A program made the translations under genes and the position numbers. Shown here one piece after another: positions 3,536 through 33,685 of a DNA stretch of 57,515 nt (position 1 is the first letter of the stretch; each line of letters starts with the position of its first letter). Under the pieces are notes generated by a model that searched no databases, was not told the origin of the DNA, and saw only the letters and a program-made list of their open reading frames with translations. Source of the DNA: Gemmatimonadota bacterium (GTDB lineage Bacteria; Gemmatimonadota; Gemmatimonadetes; Longimicrobiales; Gaopeijiaceae); NCBI GenBank assembly GCA_009844885.1, contig VYAQ01000201.1, forward strand, positions 1-57,515. Direction: 5' to 3'.

Positions 3536-5087
3536 TCGAATGAACTGGTTGCTCGCCGCGGTTGCCGGCGGCGGAGGCATGCTCGCCGCCGCGGATGCCA
3601 CGGCTCAGGAGCGGCAGGTCGTCCACAATCAGTTGGGGGTCTCGAGTTCGGAGGCGTCGCTGGAGCTCGAATTCTCCGACGGCGCGACCTTCTCGATTTC
3701 CTTCGAGAACGGTCTCGTCACGGCCGACGGCGAGGTCCTCGGCACCTACCAGTCCGGTGGCGCGGCCGAGCAGGAGTGGCGCAGCCTTCTCTCGGACGTC
3801 CTCTCCCTGGCGAACGGCCCCTTGGCTGAAGCGCTCGAGCGGTGGGAGCCGGGTCCGGATCTCACCGGGGGCGAGGCGGATCTCCTGCGCGCGGTCGACG
3901 GAGCCCTGGAGGGTGCGGTGGCGGGCGTCGCCGGCGGGGTCAGCCGTTCCGTGGCCGGGCAGAGAATGGGAGAACTCCTGGAGGCCGTGGCGCACAGCGA
4001 AAACGTCGAGGCGCTGGGGACGGCCCTGGAGGATGTCGATCTCGAGGCGCTGGGGATCTGGCTGCATCAGGACTACACGGTGCGCGAAGGAACTTCGCAC
4101 TCGGGATCCGTGCTGGTCGTAGGAGGACATCTCGACGTTCGCGGCAGCGTGGACGGCGACGTGATCGTGCTCGATGGCACCATCACGTTGCGGGAGGACG
4201 GAGAGGTCGATGGCGATGTCCATCTGATCCAGTCGGATCTGGTACGGCGTGGCGGTGAGGTCGACGGCGACGTGATGGATGTGACGCGGCAGCTGCGACG
4301 GGCGGAAAACCAGGTCCGCGAAGAGATCAGGGCCGAGGTCGCGCGCGAACTGGGACCCACCCGGAATGCCGGACGGGGACGCGGGTTCGCGAGGGTCAGC
4401 CGCGCCATGGGCGATATCTTCGAGACCGGTATCACCTTTGTGATTCTGGGTCTGTTGACGCTGCTCCTCACACGGTTCTCGGCGGATCGCGTGGACGTGG
4501 TTACCCGGGCGGTCGGAAGCCAGCCGGCGCGCAGTGCCGTGGTCGGGTTTGCGGGCGGATTCCTGATCCTCCCCGTCTATGTCCTCGGGATGGTGGTGCT
4601 GGCGATTTCCGTGGTGGGGCTGCCGGTGCTGCTGGCCTGGGTGCCGCTCTTCCCGCTGGCGGTGGTCGTCGCGGGCTTCATGGGGTACGTGGGGGTCGGC
4701 CAGCAAGTGGGAAGATGGGTGCTCGAGCATGACATCCCCTGGCTCGACTGGGTCGACCGCAACCGCCCCACGCACCTCCGCCTCCTCGGGCTTGCTACGC
4801 TGCTCGTCCCGTTCGTCGTCGGCAACGCCCTGCAGGTGCTGCCGCTGGTGGGCTGGACCGGCTCGCTCGTCATCGGGATGGGGAGCATCGCGAGTGTCGC
4901 CGCGATACTGACCGGCCTGGGCGCGGTCATCGTGACACGCGGGGGCCGCCGTCCCGTCGAGTACGGATTCGAGGAACACGCATACGAGCCGGTCGACTGG
5001 CACGAGGCCGAGGACGACGGGGCTTCGGACGAAGCCGGCGATGACGTGGACCATGGGACGACCGCCGCCGGGGACGACGAGTCATGA
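3522..5087 (+). CDS. Exported bactofilin-like domain protein with multiple TM helices
   Basis: A 521-aa protein with an unusual order of parts. Residues 1-30 are a signal peptide ending ATAQE. A helical region follows; residues about 190-255 form short beta repeats (GSVLVVGGHLDVRGSVDGDVIVLDG and repeated EVDGDV) like the right-handed beta-helix of bactofilins. Then come a charged coiled-coil-like stretch, five or so hydrophobic helices (about 300-470) and an acidic tail. Bactofilins are normally cytoplasmic polymers, but this one has a signal sequence, so the repeats would lie outside the membrane. The ATG at 3522 has GGAG upstream and overlaps the preceding gene by 14 bases. Co-transcription with the sigma/anti-sigma pair suggests a role in envelope stress; the molecular job is unknown. 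Confidence 0.75.
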   Translation: MYRFDRMNWLLAAVAGGGGMLAAADATAQERQVVHNQLGVSSSEASLELEFSDGATFSISFENGLVTADGEVLGTYQSGGAAEQEWRSLLSDVLSLANGPLAEALERWEPGPDLTGGEADLLRAVDGALEGAVAGVAGGVSRSVAGQRMGELLEAVAHSENVEALGTALEDVDLEALGIWLHQDYTVREGTSHSGSVLVVGGHLDVRGSVDGDVIVLDGTITLREDGEVDGDVHLIQSDLVRRGGEVDGDVMDVTRQLRRAENQVREEIRAEVARELGPTRNAGRGRGFARVSRAMGDIFETGITFVILGLLTLLLTRFSADRVDVVTRAVGSQPARSAVVGFAGGFLILPVYVLGMVVLAISVVGLPVLLAWVPLFPLAVVVAGFMGYVGVGQQVGRWVLEHDIPWLDWVDRNRPTHLRLLGLATLLVPFVVGNALQVLPLVGWTGSLVIGMGSIASVAAILTGLGAVIVTRGGRRPVEYGFEEHAYEPVDWHEAEDDGASDEAGDDVDHGTTAAGDDES

Positions 5088-29676: not shown

Positions 29677-29775
29677 TGGCCTGGCCGGGTGTCCCGGCAT
29701 CGGCTCGGCCGGACGTCCCGCGGATGGCCTGACCGGGATCGAGGGCCGTGTTTCCGCGGAGCCGATTGCACGTTT

Positions 29776-29803
29776 TTGCCCTGAGAACTGTCATATATAT
29801 GTA
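29776..29803 (+). promoter_or_regulatory. Possible promoter of the thioredoxin-like/propeller/sigma run
   Basis: TTGCCC (29776-29781), 16 bases, then TATGTA (29798-29803), embedded in the most AT-rich patch nearby (ATATATAT). It precedes the TTG start at 29848 by 45 bases. Moderate sigma-70-like match; an ECF-type promoter was not recognised here. Confidence 0.35.
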
Positions 29804-29847: not shown

Positions 29848-30399
29848 TTGATTGCAGTCAGGAGCACAAAGACCGCCGCCGCGCTGGCAACCCTGGCAGC
29901 CGTGCAGTTCACGCTGCTCGCCGACCGGCTGGAGACCGGGAGTGACGGGCATGTCGCGATAGGCGACGACCTCTCGGGTGTCCGGGTCGGCGGCGATGAC
30001 GGCCGGGACAGCCTGCTCGGCGAGTTCCAGCTGGTGCTGGTGTTCGATCCCGAGTGCGCACATTCCGGGCTGGCAGCCTCAAAGTGGGAAGCACTCCTGC
30101 GGGACCCCGACCGACCCGGAAGCATCGTCGCGGTCGCCCCGGGGTCGTTCGAAGCAGCCGCCCGGCATGCCGCCGCCCAAGGCTGGCAGGTCACCGTGGC
30201 GACCGTGGACCGCTTCCGCCCGGGAAGCCGGGAACACGCGCTGGTCAGCCGTACCCCGTGGGTCTTCGCGCTGCAGGACGGCCGCGTGGTCGCTCAGGGG
30301 CACGGAGACGAGTTGGCCGAAGTCGTCGCGGCGCTGTCGCCCGCCACCCGCACACCAGGCACTGCGCGGCCACAATTCGCGACGGTTTACCTGCCATGA
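29848..30399 (+). CDS. Exported thioredoxin-like protein with degenerate active site
   Basis: A 183-aa protein with an N-terminal hydrophobic signal or anchor (ALATLAAVQFTLLADR). The later part, LLGEFQLVLVFDPECAHSGLAASKWEALLRDPD...VATVDRFRPGSREHALVSRTPWVFALQDGRVVAQGHGDELAEVVAAL, follows a thioredoxin fold: strand, active-site turn and a cis-Pro-like SRTPWVF. The turn is DPECAHS, with one Cys instead of CxxC, so it could bind or exchange disulfides but is not a normal oxidoreductase. TTG is the proposed start. It shares an ATGA junction with the next gene. The fold is judged by pattern, not by search. Confidence 0.6.
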   Translation: MIAVRSTKTAAALATLAAVQFTLLADRLETGSDGHVAIGDDLSGVRVGGDDGRDSLLGEFQLVLVFDPECAHSGLAASKWEALLRDPDRPGSIVAVAPGSFEAAARHAAAQGWQVTVATVDRFRPGSREHALVSRTPWVFALQDGRVVAQGHGDELAEVVAALSPATRTPGTARPQFATVYLP

Positions 30400-31523
30400 G
30401 GCCCCGCCTCCTGATGTCCGGCATCGCCTGCGCGGTCGCGAGCGCCTGCGCCAGTGCGGACGCCGCGATCGAGTTTCGCGAGGTACCGGCCGAGGCGCTC
30501 ACGACGCCTTTTCCGGGTGTGGAATTCACGGCCATCCGGGACATTGCGGAAGCACCGGACGCGGTCTGGGTCCTCGACACCTCTCCACCGTTCCTCACGC
30601 GGATCGAGCATACCGGCGGTGGCGCCCTTCGCGGTGGCGAACGCGGTGAAGGTCCGGAGGATCTTCTCTTTCCCATCGCCCTTCAGGTCGACCCGGACAG
30701 CGGGCTGGCGCATGTGTGGGACCTCGGCGCCAGGGCGCACAAGGTCTTCGACGCGACGATGTCGCTGGTCCGGTCGGATCGTCTGCGGGGAGCGGACTGG
30801 GCGCGCCGCACGGATTTCACCGACGTCTCCTACGCGGACCCCTACCGCGTCCGTCTGGATGGACGGGGCGCGGTCGTCGTGGACACGCCCGCCAACCTCG
30901 ACGTCACGGCCGACTTCCGGCGAGCGTCTCTCGTGCGGGCCGATCTCGCGCTGGAGACGCGGCGGGAAGTCGTCGCCTTCTCGGATCACATGCGATTGAC
31001 GCGGGATGACCCTGGAGAATTCACGCCCGTTCCACTGTGGGACGCCTGCGGAAGCGACCTCGTGCTTTGGCGTCCCGCCTCGCATGATCTGACCTGGCTG
31101 CGCGACGACGGATCGATCGCAGCCCAGGTCCCGATTCCAGGACGTCCTGCCCCGATCCGGGAGGCGGACATCGTACTCTATCTGGAGAAGATGATCCGCC
31201 TCGAACTCGGGCCGAACTACGCCGAAGCCGGGATCGACCTGGAGGTCATGGCCCGGGATGTGCGAGCCCAATTCTCGGATGAACTGCCGTTCGTGACCAC
31301 GGTGCGGTGCCAGGCCGGGGGCCCGGCGTGGCTCCGTGTTTTCGACAATCGGAACGATCCCCTTGGACACGGCCGCCGCTGGCTGCAGGTGACCACAGCG
31401 GGATCTGTCGACGCACTCGAATTCCCCCCTTCGTTCGAGCCTCTGACCGCGACGCCGCGAGGAGTGCTCGGTTCCCTTGAATCCTCCGACGGGATACAGC
31501 GGCTCGCCGAATGGACGAGGTAG
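30396..31523 (+). CDS. Six-bladed beta-propeller-like exported protein
   Basis: A 375-aa protein with a short signal ending at a lipobox-like VASACAS (Cys about 19). The body has repeated strand pairs such as FTAIRDIAEAPDAVWVLDTSPPFLTRIEHTGG...GERGEGPEDLLFPIALQVDPDSGLAHVWDLGARAHKVFD, resembling the six-bladed propeller proteins of Bacteroidota and Gemmatimonadota. GEGPEDL (EGPxE) is a typical element of that group. No catalytic site is seen; a binding or scaffold role at the membrane surface is likely. ATG at 30396 overlaps the upstream stop. A Cys-rich mini-protein gene follows 41 bases later. Confidence 0.65.
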   Translation: MRPRLLMSGIACAVASACASADAAIEFREVPAEALTTPFPGVEFTAIRDIAEAPDAVWVLDTSPPFLTRIEHTGGGALRGGERGEGPEDLLFPIALQVDPDSGLAHVWDLGARAHKVFDATMSLVRSDRLRGADWARRTDFTDVSYADPYRVRLDGRGAVVVDTPANLDVTADFRRASLVRADLALETRREVVAFSDHMRLTRDDPGEFTPVPLWDACGSDLVLWRPASHDLTWLRDDGSIAAQVPIPGRPAPIREADIVLYLEKMIRLELGPNYAEAGIDLEVMARDVRAQFSDELPFVTTVRCQAGGPAWLRVFDNRNDPLGHGRRWLQVTTAGSVDALEFPPSFEPLTATPRGVLGSLESSDGIQRLAEWTR

Positions 31524-31564
31524 ACCGTATCGCGTCGCGTCACCCTTACGTGGAGACATGGCAC

Positions 31565-31771
31565 ATGCGCAAGCTGGTCATAGCGGGTCTGATCGTTCTC
31601 AATGTTGTGCTGGCCGTCGCTCTGTTCGCGACGCCCGCACGCACGCTCGTCACCCGTTTCACGCGTGCCGACTGCTGCTGGGGCGAGGGCACCGCGGCAT
31701 ACTGCTGCCGCGAGTGTTGCTGGCTCATCAAGAACTGTGACCGCCACAGCGAATGCAAGCCCGATCCATGA
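31565..31771 (+). CDS. Cysteine-rich exported mini-protein
   Basis: A 68-aa protein: residues 4-22 form a hydrophobic signal or anchor (KLVIAGLIVLNVVLAVALFATPA), and the C-terminal 32 residues hold eight Cys (37, 38, 47, 48, 51, 52, 58, 64) in three CC pairs plus two singles. Such density points to a disulfide-linked or metal-binding module outside the cytoplasm. ATG 31565 is preferred over 31511 because GGAG stands 9 bases before it and the N-terminus is then a clean signal. Its stop overlaps the start of the next gene (ATGA). I know no family for it; small Cys-rich NVEALA-type proteins next to propeller genes in Bacteroidota are a possible parallel, though no NVEALA motif is present. Confidence 0.6.
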   Translation: MRKLVIAGLIVLNVVLAVALFATPARTLVTRFTRADCCWGEGTAAYCCRECCWLIKNCDRHSECKPDP

Positions 31772-33045
31772 GCGGGCCGTCCAAACGCCGCAGGGCTGCC
31801 ACCGGAATGACCGGGATGGGCCAGGCACTGAAGGCGGCAAGCATCTGCACCCTCGGACTGGTGGCCGCGATCGTCGTGTTCGTCACCCTGGCCGTGGACC
31901 AGCCGCAACCATGGTCGGGCTGGGCGTGGCTCGAGTACCTGGCGGGCCGGCTTGGCTTCATCCTGCCCTTCGCCGCATTTGCCGGTGGGGTCGCGATTTG
32001 GTGGCGAGGTCCAGCCGCGGGACGAACCTGGGTGGCGGTATGGGCCGGGCTGGCAATCGGGCTGGCGAGCTATGCTTCGTCCGAGATCGTCGGCCCGCTC
32101 GCGAACTATGCCGCCCTGGCGGACGAGCCCGACCTGGCCGACGTGAGACCCTTCGGGCCGAGCACCCCGGCGGGCAAGCTTCGCCAGCTCCGCTTCGTCG
32201 ATGCGAACCCTCCGGAGCAGTACAGTCTGGGCGACGCCGCGCGTACCCCACCCAACTACGTCCGGTTCCTGCTGCACCTTCCGGTGGCTTTTGTGGTGTT
32301 CTCGATCCTGAACTGCCTGCTGGGCCTTTACGCGAGACGAATGATGTACGTGCTGCGGTCCGCGACCCGCCGAAACGGCTGCCTCGCGATCGGTCTGGCC
32401 GGCGGTCTGGGGCTCTTTGCCGCGGCCTTTGTGGCCGGCCACCCGAACCGCGACTGGGTCTCGGTCTCCGGTGTGGCGGCCGCCTGGCTCCCGCTGACGA
32501 TACCGCTCCTCGAAGCCATGGTGTTCGGCGTGATCATCCTCTACAACGAGGACCGCCTCGACTGGTTGTACCGCAAGTTGGCCCTCCTGACGCGGGGACC
32601 CCGAGGCATCCCCTGTCCCGACATCATTGACGTCACCGACGATCGACCTGGTGTCGAGGTGGACGCCGATGTGCGCGAACACGTCAGGACCTGCCCGTCG
32701 TGCCAACTCGATCTGCGCGTGGTCCGGGCGGCAAGGAAGGCATTCGAGCCGGATCCGGAAACCCGGGCGCGCCTCAACATTCTCAATGAGCGTGTCCTGC
32801 GGAACATTGCGGAACTGCGGATCCAGCGGGCAGTCGTTCGTCCCGCCGACAACGGGGTGACCGCGTTGCTGGCGGCCCTGGCAGCAGCCGCCGCGATCCT
32901 GACAGCCGGGGGACACCTGCAGCCGGGAGCCACTGCCTTCGAGCTGGCACTTGCCGCTGCGGGTGTGGGCGTGGCGGCCGCATGGGCTCACCGTCTGGCC
33001 GGCAGAAGGGAGCACACGCTGGCGCTTCAGGCCGCGCGGACCTGA
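31768..33045 (+). CDS. Multi-TM protein with zinc-finger anti-sigma domain
   Basis: A 425-aa membrane protein. About six hydrophobic segments occupy residues 20-260; a cytoplasmic zf-HC2-like zinc site follows: Cys283 in IPCPDIIDV, then His305, Cys309 and Cys312 in EHVRTCPSC, the ligand spacing (HxxxCxxC) of ZAS anti-sigma factors. Two more hydrophobic segments close the protein. The next gene, 25 bases on, encodes an ECF sigma factor, so this is very likely its anti-sigma. It is far larger and more membrane-embedded than usual ZAS proteins, and it precedes rather than follows the sigma gene. Translation is coupled to the Cys-rich mini-protein (ATGA at 31768). Confidence 0.7.
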   Translation: MSGPSKRRRAATGMTGMGQALKAASICTLGLVAAIVVFVTLAVDQPQPWSGWAWLEYLAGRLGFILPFAAFAGGVAIWWRGPAAGRTWVAVWAGLAIGLASYASSEIVGPLANYAALADEPDLADVRPFGPSTPAGKLRQLRFVDANPPEQYSLGDAARTPPNYVRFLLHLPVAFVVFSILNCLLGLYARRMMYVLRSATRRNGCLAIGLAGGLGLFAAAFVAGHPNRDWVSVSGVAAAWLPLTIPLLEAMVFGVIILYNEDRLDWLYRKLALLTRGPRGIPCPDIIDVTDDRPGVEVDADVREHVRTCPSCQLDLRVVRAARKAFEPDPETRARLNILNERVLRNIAELRIQRAVVRPADNGVTALLAALAAAAAILTAGGHLQPGATAFELALAAAGVGVAAAWAHRLAGRREHTLALQAART

Positions 33046-33070
33046 CCTCGCGGATTCGCCCGCGCAATCC

Positions 33071-33685
33071 ATGACCGGTCCCCGGGACAGAGACGCGAAG
33101 CGCGTGCCGTTCGATGCGGCGAGGTTCGTGGCCGGTGGCAACTACGCACGCCGCGTCGTGGAGGAGAACGGTCCCCTGGTAAGGGCCATATGCAAGGGAT
33201 ACGCGCGCGACCACCACCACCTGGATGACCTGTACCAGGAGACCTGGTTGAAGGTGTACGCGACTGCAGGGTCCTTTCGGGCAACCGGCACATTTCGGGG
33301 CTGGCTCTCACGGCTGACTCGAAGCGTTTGCGTCAGCGACTATCGTGCCCGGACGGCCGCGGCCAGGAACCTTGAACGCTACGCCGGCCAACTGGCCGTC
33401 ACCGACACGGCCGGAGCGGATCCCGATCCGCTCGAGCTCACCGAGAAGCAGTTCCTCCACCACGCGCTTCGCGAAGCGATCGACGACCTCCCTGCCCGGG
33501 AGAGGCAGGCGTTGACCCTCCGGCTGATCGACGAAAGGCGCCCGGCCGAGGTGGCTCGCCAGATGCGCATCCGGCCTGCGACCGTGCGCTCCCACATTCG
33601 CCATGCCCTCAACCGGCTCAGGAAGCGGATCGAGGACCCACAGGACCCATTGCACGTCCTTCTGCGCTTCCGGGACGACAGCTGA
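33071..33685 (+). CDS. ECF RNA polymerase sigma factor
   Basis: A 204-aa group 4 sigma factor. Region 2 (NGPLVRAICKGYARDHHHLDDLYQETWLKVYATAGSFRATGTFRGWLSRLTRSVCVSDYRAR) and region 4 (LREAIDDLPARERQALTLRLIDERRPAEVARQMRIRPATVRSHIRHALNRLRKRI) are both present. ATG at 33071 gives a standard length; the longer frame runs back into the anti-sigma gene. It ends the run that starts at 29848, so the exported proteins upstream may be its sensory input and also its targets. It differs clearly from the first ECF factor of the window. Confidence 0.88.
   Translation: MTGPRDRDAKRVPFDAARFVAGGNYARRVVEENGPLVRAICKGYARDHHHLDDLYQETWLKVYATAGSFRATGTFRGWLSRLTRSVCVSDYRARTAAARNLERYAGQLAVTDTAGADPDPLELTEKQFLHHALREAIDDLPARERQALTLRLIDERRPAEVARQMRIRPATVRSHIRHALNRLRKRIEDPQDPLHVLLRFRDDS

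Follow-up and report, generated by a model that had tools for sequence, protein, structure and literature searches.

The contig VYAQ01000201.1 of a Gemmatimonadota bacterium (assembly GCA_009844885.1; the window is the whole stretch of 57,515 nucleotides that we analysed) carries a run of five plus-strand genes at positions 29848-33685, which we discuss here as a candidate envelope-signalling cassette. In order, the genes encode a thioredoxin-like (Trx-like) protein, a beta-propeller, a mini-protein with eight cysteines, a fusion of a membrane protein with six transmembrane (TM) helices to a zinc anti-sigma domain, and a sigma factor of the extracytoplasmic function (ECF) type. The genes are tightly packed. 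ATGA overlaps join the Trx-like gene to the propeller gene (30396) and the mini-protein gene to the membrane gene (31768), and gaps of 41 and 25 bases precede the mini-protein gene and the sigma gene, respectively. Coordinates, junctions, gaps, the eight cysteines and the H-x3-C-x2-C motif are all as an earlier, sequence-only reading of this DNA had given them. Labels of the form L### and G### are our own labels for sampled loci and genomes.

The cassette is flanked by pdxA upstream and holB downstream, and it occupies this position in the window genome and in four congeners (G001, G004, G017 and G018). In eight of the congeners we checked the cassette is absent and pdxA adjoins holB directly, in several cases with a four-base overlap; in the ninth (G015) the contig begins at holB. 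Hence, the cassette is gained or lost as a block, and the grouping of its genes is not due to chance. All five genes are under purifying selection when compared with the four orthologous loci (ratio of nonsynonymous to synonymous substitution rates, Ka/Ks, 0.11-0.47), most clearly the mini-protein gene (0.11-0.20). The sequence supports the view that the five genes form one transcription unit with its own sigma/anti-sigma pair. A locus in another genus of the same family (L076) encodes, in this order, the Trx-like protein (as a fragment), propeller, mini-protein, six-TM protein, sigma and anti-sigma. In a third genus (G349) the same parts are divided between two contigs, L078 and L229, and their order there is inferred. 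L229 also contains a 50-residue chimera of the N-termini of propeller and mini-protein (4367-4519); the intact trio of Trx-like protein, propeller and mini-protein is found on L078, and the chimera is probably a collapsed assembly.

The membrane gene (31768-33045, plus strand) had been taken for a single multi-TM zinc anti-sigma factor. The membrane part and the zinc motif (H-x3-C-x2-C, residues 305-312) hold up, the single protein does not: judging by a DNA alignment of the five orthologues, the gene is a recent fusion of two proteins. At three of the four other orthologous loci (G001, G004 and G018) the six-TM protein and the anti-sigma are encoded by neighbouring separate genes with TGA-xxx-ATG between them. 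The window and G017 have CGA in place of this stop. The window additionally has ATC for the ATG and thus lacks the separate start (CGA-GGC-ATC, 32602-32610, plus strand). Searching the window's own genome gives the same division, since in paralogues residues ~15-260 and ~282-425 are encoded by different genes, which lie apart by about the length of a sigma gene. With the change from TGA to CGA, the six-TM protein and the anti-sigma are linked naturally.

The anti-sigma part (32611-33045, plus strand) has the pattern C-x21-H-x3-C-x2-C in an alignment with 19 relatives, followed by two hydrophobic segments (residues 363-381 and 387-405) with few residues between them. Cys283, His305, Cys309 and Cys312 are all present, and the last three are invariant in 20 relatives. 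The 19 aligned relatives are encoded directly after a sigma gene, save those of the window's locus type, which stand directly before it. With the motif and the adjacent sigma gene of class I zinc anti-sigma (ZAS) factors, the domain is predicted to be a sigma inhibitor; the zf-HC2 match of the window protein lies below the curated cut-off (E 0.058, 14 of 22.2 bits). The zinc site had also been read as a hint of redox sensing. This argument is weak, as zinc motifs are reported for about half of the membrane-bound class I anti-sigmas and a structural role has been suggested for them (PMC7406223).

What the sequence-only reading missed, besides the fusion, is the kind of protein to which the anti-sigma is joined. 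An AlphaFold model of the six-TM part (residues 1-281; 31768-32610, plus strand), built with 26 relatives, consists of six long helices and is of good quality (predicted local distance difference test, pLDDT, 90.8; predicted template modelling score, pTM, 0.85). Its best 16 fold matches in the PDB are all LptF or LptG, most of them at a probability of 1.00 and with E-values of 0.03 to 0.7; the template modelling scores of the top matches, normalized to the query, are 0.48-0.59, and the model has the three-plus-three helix arrangement of this fold. The jellyroll that LptF and LptG carry between TM3 and TM4 is absent from the model, which has a loop of ~45 residues without strands instead. This loop, predicted to be periplasmic (~117-162), is the most conserved stretch of the protein and holds many of its most conserved positions (F129, G130, T133, P134, P148, P149, P161, P162 and N163). 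Among the 26 relatives, ten match Pfam LptF_LptG weakly (best E 9e-4, under the gathering cut-off). The window protein has no match to this family, and a search of PDB sequences with a hidden Markov model profile of the six-TM protein gave none either. The true LptF and LptG genes are located elsewhere in the window genome. According to the model, then, the six-TM protein has the LptF/LptG fold without the jellyroll, and the tests made do not place it in the exporter family.

The system is not confined to the window and its orthologues. Members of the six-TM family are present in 20 of the 23 genomes of the genus, at one to four copies per genome. Two further genera, out of 40 in the family, have them as well. 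Across 44 paralogous loci in the genus, the genes usually run from the 8-Cys mini-protein through the six-TM protein and the sigma to the zinc anti-sigma. The five-gene system proposed from sequence alone is borne out and extends to paralogues. The trio of Trx-like protein, propeller and mini-protein is kept beside three different regulator types. A second trio lineage (L085:1778-6797; L230:1406-6437; L073-L075 and L087) comprises another ECF sigma, Trx-like protein, propeller, 8-Cys mini-protein, a membrane protein of ~400 residues and an AraC-type regulator; this membrane protein has a weak LptF/G match (G010:C56, E 3e-7). In another genus (L079:2732-6807; L082:4235-8304) the genes after those for the mini-protein, Trx-like protein and propeller code for a PAS histidine kinase and a LuxR-type response regulator. 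A divergent ATP-binding cassette transporter lies at these two loci and also at L080. Adjoining one module are three tandem genes for small exported proteins with a common SVRP/SIRP...C motif (L029:2942-3639).

The sigma factor (33071-33685, plus strand) has regions 2 and 4 of an ECF sigma, with matches over the cut-off to Sigma70_r2 (2e-15, 56.6 bits), Sigma70_r4_2 (1e-11, 44.8 bits) and TIGR02937 (1e-26, 93.6 bits). An AT-rich promoter candidate had been proposed upstream of the first gene. What this region contains is a conserved ECF-type element, TTGCAC-N17-TGTC (29766-29792, plus strand, predicted), and not a mere AT-rich stretch. All five orthologous loci have the element ahead of the first gene, the four other than the window's in the form TTGCAC-N17-(C/T)GT(C/T). 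Its distance to the first start codon is 83 bp in the window and 83-134 bp across the five loci. There are seven exact matches to TTGCAC-N17-TGTC in the 4.9-Mb genome, five of them at these modules, and 329 kb of module DNA contain 53 promoter sites vs one site for a reversed-pattern control. G009, G011 and G015, the three congeners that lack the six-TM protein, have four, zero and zero promoter matches, none of the consensus type. A spaced word before the mini-proteins, TTGCGA...TTATCC, was dropped as a candidate since it consists of a TTG start and coding sequence; the true promoter is adjacent.

Within a locus, promoter sites share their -10 tetramer. This is the case for 26 of 26 within-locus site pairs, while 9.3 are expected and the maximum in 20,000 shuffles was 19; sites were chosen automatically, and the shuffle count should not be taken as an exact probability because the set contains near-identical loci of sister genomes. 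From this agreement, each paralogous copy appears to use its own sigma, with a locus-specific -10 element. Outside the modules, sites precede genes for exported Cys-rich proteins, propellers, other ECF sigmas and LuxR-type regulators. We infer that every sigma acts on the promoters at its own locus and on a small regulon of genes for exported proteins. The element was also seen before many unlinked genes, including other ECF sigmas and orphan LuxR-type regulators (L151-L168), a possible sigma cascade. Two kinds of small protein are found behind the same promoter. One, of 68 residues (MAN/MAD...TQRLRRVE), occurs at C310-type loci, and the other, of 77-79 residues (AGDIVMLRSGGPWMTVEE), at other loci; the two kinds are located at L149:9236-10173 (minus strand), L146, L134, L024, L027 and L039.

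One component predicted to lie on the periplasmic side is the mini-protein (31565-31771, plus strand), which has 68 residues, exactly eight cysteines and one predicted N-terminal membrane helix (residues 2-22). The eight cysteines and Asn13, which lies within the membrane helix, are invariant among 25 relatives, including those beside other regulators. Homologues are found in 28 of 395 genomes sampled across the phylum, and a contig scan with one mini-protein as the query returned a single locus, in a Gemmatimonadetes metagenome-assembled genome (MAG). Neither NVEALA nor any other family in Pfam, NCBIfam or PHROGs matches it. In agreement with the sequence-only reading, mini-protein and anti-sigma module occur together in another genus and at 29 of the 44 loci of this genus, where the mini-protein gene lies directly upstream of the six-TM gene on the same strand. 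Similarly, 29 of the 32 strongest mini-protein matches adjoin a six-TM match of the same search; the remaining three lie at a contig end, at L076 (beside the six-TM gene) and in G349.

The mini-protein is also associated with the Trx-like protein. Of 29 loci with the mini-protein, 21 have a detectable Trx-like gene, vs 0 of 13 loci that lack the mini-protein (Fisher p 1.6e-5; one of the 13, G012:C28, ends at a contig edge), and the tree of six-TM proteins needs eight changes of mini-protein state, at least five of them forced by well-supported branches. Therefore, as far as sequence can tell, the mini-protein and the Trx-like protein behave as a pair that has been lost together more than once, while the core of six-TM protein, sigma and anti-sigma stays. 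This bears on two suggestions of the sequence-only reading. That the two proteins form a disulfide-based sensor is right in so far as they are a functional pair, and unproven as to the sensor mechanism. The second suggestion, a signal passed by the mini-protein to the anti-sigma, is not supported, given the repeated loss of the mini-protein from loci that retain the core. At two loci without a mini-protein (L137:5369 and L138:6575) no gene separates the promoter from the six-TM gene, which looks like a deletion of an intervening mini-protein gene.

The Trx-like protein (29848-30399, plus strand, TTG start) is predicted to be membrane-anchored or exported and contains a single cysteine, in FDPECAHS. 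A profile of 21 relatives matches Trx-like and TlpA-like chains in the PDB (2m72, 7e-5; 3hcz, 3e-4; 3ewl) as well as protein disulfide isomerase domains. Cys70, Trp80, Pro137 and one Gln inside the N-terminal hydrophobic segment are invariant. The redox pair CxxC is absent from the Trx-like proteins of the sigma/ZAS branch, which have CxHS/T instead; it is found in some relatives of other branches only. The propeller (30396-31523, plus strand) is predicted to be exported and is a probable lipoprotein with a lipobox-like N-terminus. Its profile matches NHL-repeat propellers with E-values down to 1e-15, and its relatives have two invariant cysteines, Cys218 and Cys305. Propeller and mini-protein are immediate neighbours at loci of this type, but not at most paralogous loci. 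Pfam, NCBIfam and PHROGs hold no family for the window's Trx-like, propeller or membrane proteins.

How could these parts work together? On balance, we think it probable that they form a self-regulated envelope-signalling cassette in which the periplasmic trio is a sensing or client layer. The zinc anti-sigma domain would hold the ECF sigma in the cytoplasm. Because the anti-sigma has almost no periplasmic part, a signal would have to reach it via the six-TM LptF/G-like protein, in which the predicted periplasmic TM3-TM4 loop is the best conserved region, and because the two proteins are fused, their coupling would be physical in the window species. On the periplasmic side, the membrane-anchored mini-protein, the single-Cys Trx-like protein and the probable lipoprotein propeller may form an accessory sensing or client layer, in which the Trx-like protein most likely handles the disulfides of the mini-protein. 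A signal would free the sigma to read promoters of the TTGCAC-N17-TGTC type, and the freed sigma would switch on the operon that encodes it, along with other genes for exported Cys-rich proteins and propellers. We can go one step further and propose, more tentatively, a class of receptors in which a six-TM protein derived from LptF/G and lacking the jellyroll is gated by the mini-protein, whose state is set by the single-Cys Trx-like protein, and controls an anti-sigma that can become fused to it. Such receptors would exist as several insulated paralogues in one genome, each with a promoter code of its own.

A number of observations weigh against the signalling cassette. First, the mini-protein and Trx-like genes are gone from many loci that keep the core, and hence they are not essential to the core everywhere. 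Second, an hhalign comparison of the six-TM protein with LptF/G of the phylum reaches only E 0.022 and covers only the last three helices (the C-terminal TMs). Third, the structure model of the mini-protein is of low confidence (pLDDT 70.6, pTM 0.34). Fourth, the orthologous locus in G017 has apparent frameshifts in the propeller and fusion genes. These frameshifts (L133:3910-6525) come from one G too few in a run of G, either an assembly error in the MAG or decay.

The first of these observations would also be expected if the trio were not a sensor at all but the output that the sigma induces. It would then consist of an exported Cys-rich peptide, the factor that folds it and a propeller for binding or processing, and the six-TM protein would be the only sensor. 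Far away from the modules, the same promoter stands before further genes for exported Cys-rich proteins and propellers, and in another genus the trio is found beside a PAS histidine kinase and a LuxR-type regulator (L079 and L082), both of which agree with an output. If the trio were an output, however, there would be little need for the mini-protein gene to stand immediately before the six-TM gene at 29 of 44 loci, or for an invariant Asn in its membrane helix, which is beyond the needs of a disposable signal peptide. The retention of the trio beside three different regulator types also speaks against it, and we regard this explanation as rather unlikely.

Even less probable is that the trio makes up a periplasmic oxidoreductase similar to methylamine dehydrogenase or quinohemoprotein amine dehydrogenase, with a MauD-like maturation protein, and is merely regulated by the sigma. 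The kinds of parts are the same (a propeller, a small Cys-rich chain and a Trx-like protein), and two mini-proteins graze NCBIfam QH_gamma at E 0.038. The cofactor tryptophan tryptophylquinone requires two Trp, however, and cysteine tryptophylquinone one, and there is no invariant Trp in either 17 or 25 aligned mini-proteins. Nor does the cassette contain a radical-SAM, MauE or cytochrome gene, and the Trx-like protein of this branch lacks CxxC. Finally, propellers are numerous around these loci and zinc anti-sigmas of the RsrA/ChrR kind are common, so the genes could be ordinary neighbours of a plain cytoplasmic redox switch without a functional link, yet the shared promoter, the fusion to a membrane protein, the inheritance as a unit between pdxA and holB and an order conserved in two genera and many paralogues largely refute this, and we give it hardly any weight.

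The signalling cassette that we favour shares features with several known systems. In the three-part Cnr system, CnrY is the anti-sigma, CnrX the periplasmic sensor and CnrH the sigma. Our proposal likewise has a separate sensor on the periplasmic side that acts on the membrane anti-sigma of an ECF sigma, but the proteins are unrelated, the partner is a six-TM LptF/G-like protein and the anti-sigma carries a zinc motif. In Bacteroidota, genes for six-bladed propellers occur beside those for small exported proteins such as NVEALA. Here, too, the propeller adjoins a small exported protein, with a different Cys pattern. The LptF/LptG exporter permeases have the same six-TM fold and marginal sequence similarity; unlike them, the cassette protein is shorter, has no periplasmic jellyroll and is encoded beside sigma and anti-sigma genes. 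The anti-sigmas of the NrsF/DUF1109 kind have six TM helices. Like the cassette protein, they are polytopic membrane regulators of ECF sigmas (Caulobacter SigF, PMC3511200; Brucella, PMC8315932), but in the cassette the anti-sigma function lies in a separate zinc domain, and DUF1109 was not among the 25 of 27 Pfam families listed for the 26 six-TM relatives (E up to 1).

A further likeness is to ECF sigmas with membrane-bound class I anti-sigmas such as RsiW/SigW (PMC7406223), with which the cassette shares sigma regions 2 and 4, an adjacent Hx3Cx2C motif, membrane anchorage and an autoregulated promoter (predicted here). It differs in that its anti-sigma has two C-terminal hydrophobic segments and no sensor domain, works with or is fused behind a six-TM LptF/G-like protein, and is accompanied by the mini-protein, Trx-like protein and propeller. 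The pairing of an ECF sigma with a zinc anti-sigma is already known. For the LptF/G-like partner, this mini-protein and their combination we found no description in the open-access literature, in agreement with the impression that no system with these parts had been described.

If our interpretation is correct, a transporter-type fold, that of LptF/G, would have been recruited as the transmembrane part of ECF sigma signalling, and a natural fusion ties the LptF/G-like protein to the anti-sigma. The parallel sigma systems, whose -10 elements differ between loci, would then be a set in which the insulation of paralogous sigma/anti-sigma pairs can be studied. The mini-protein and its single-Cys Trx-like partner would provide an example in which a link between disulfide chemistry and transcription can be tested, in a Gemmatimonadota group of which few members have been cultured.

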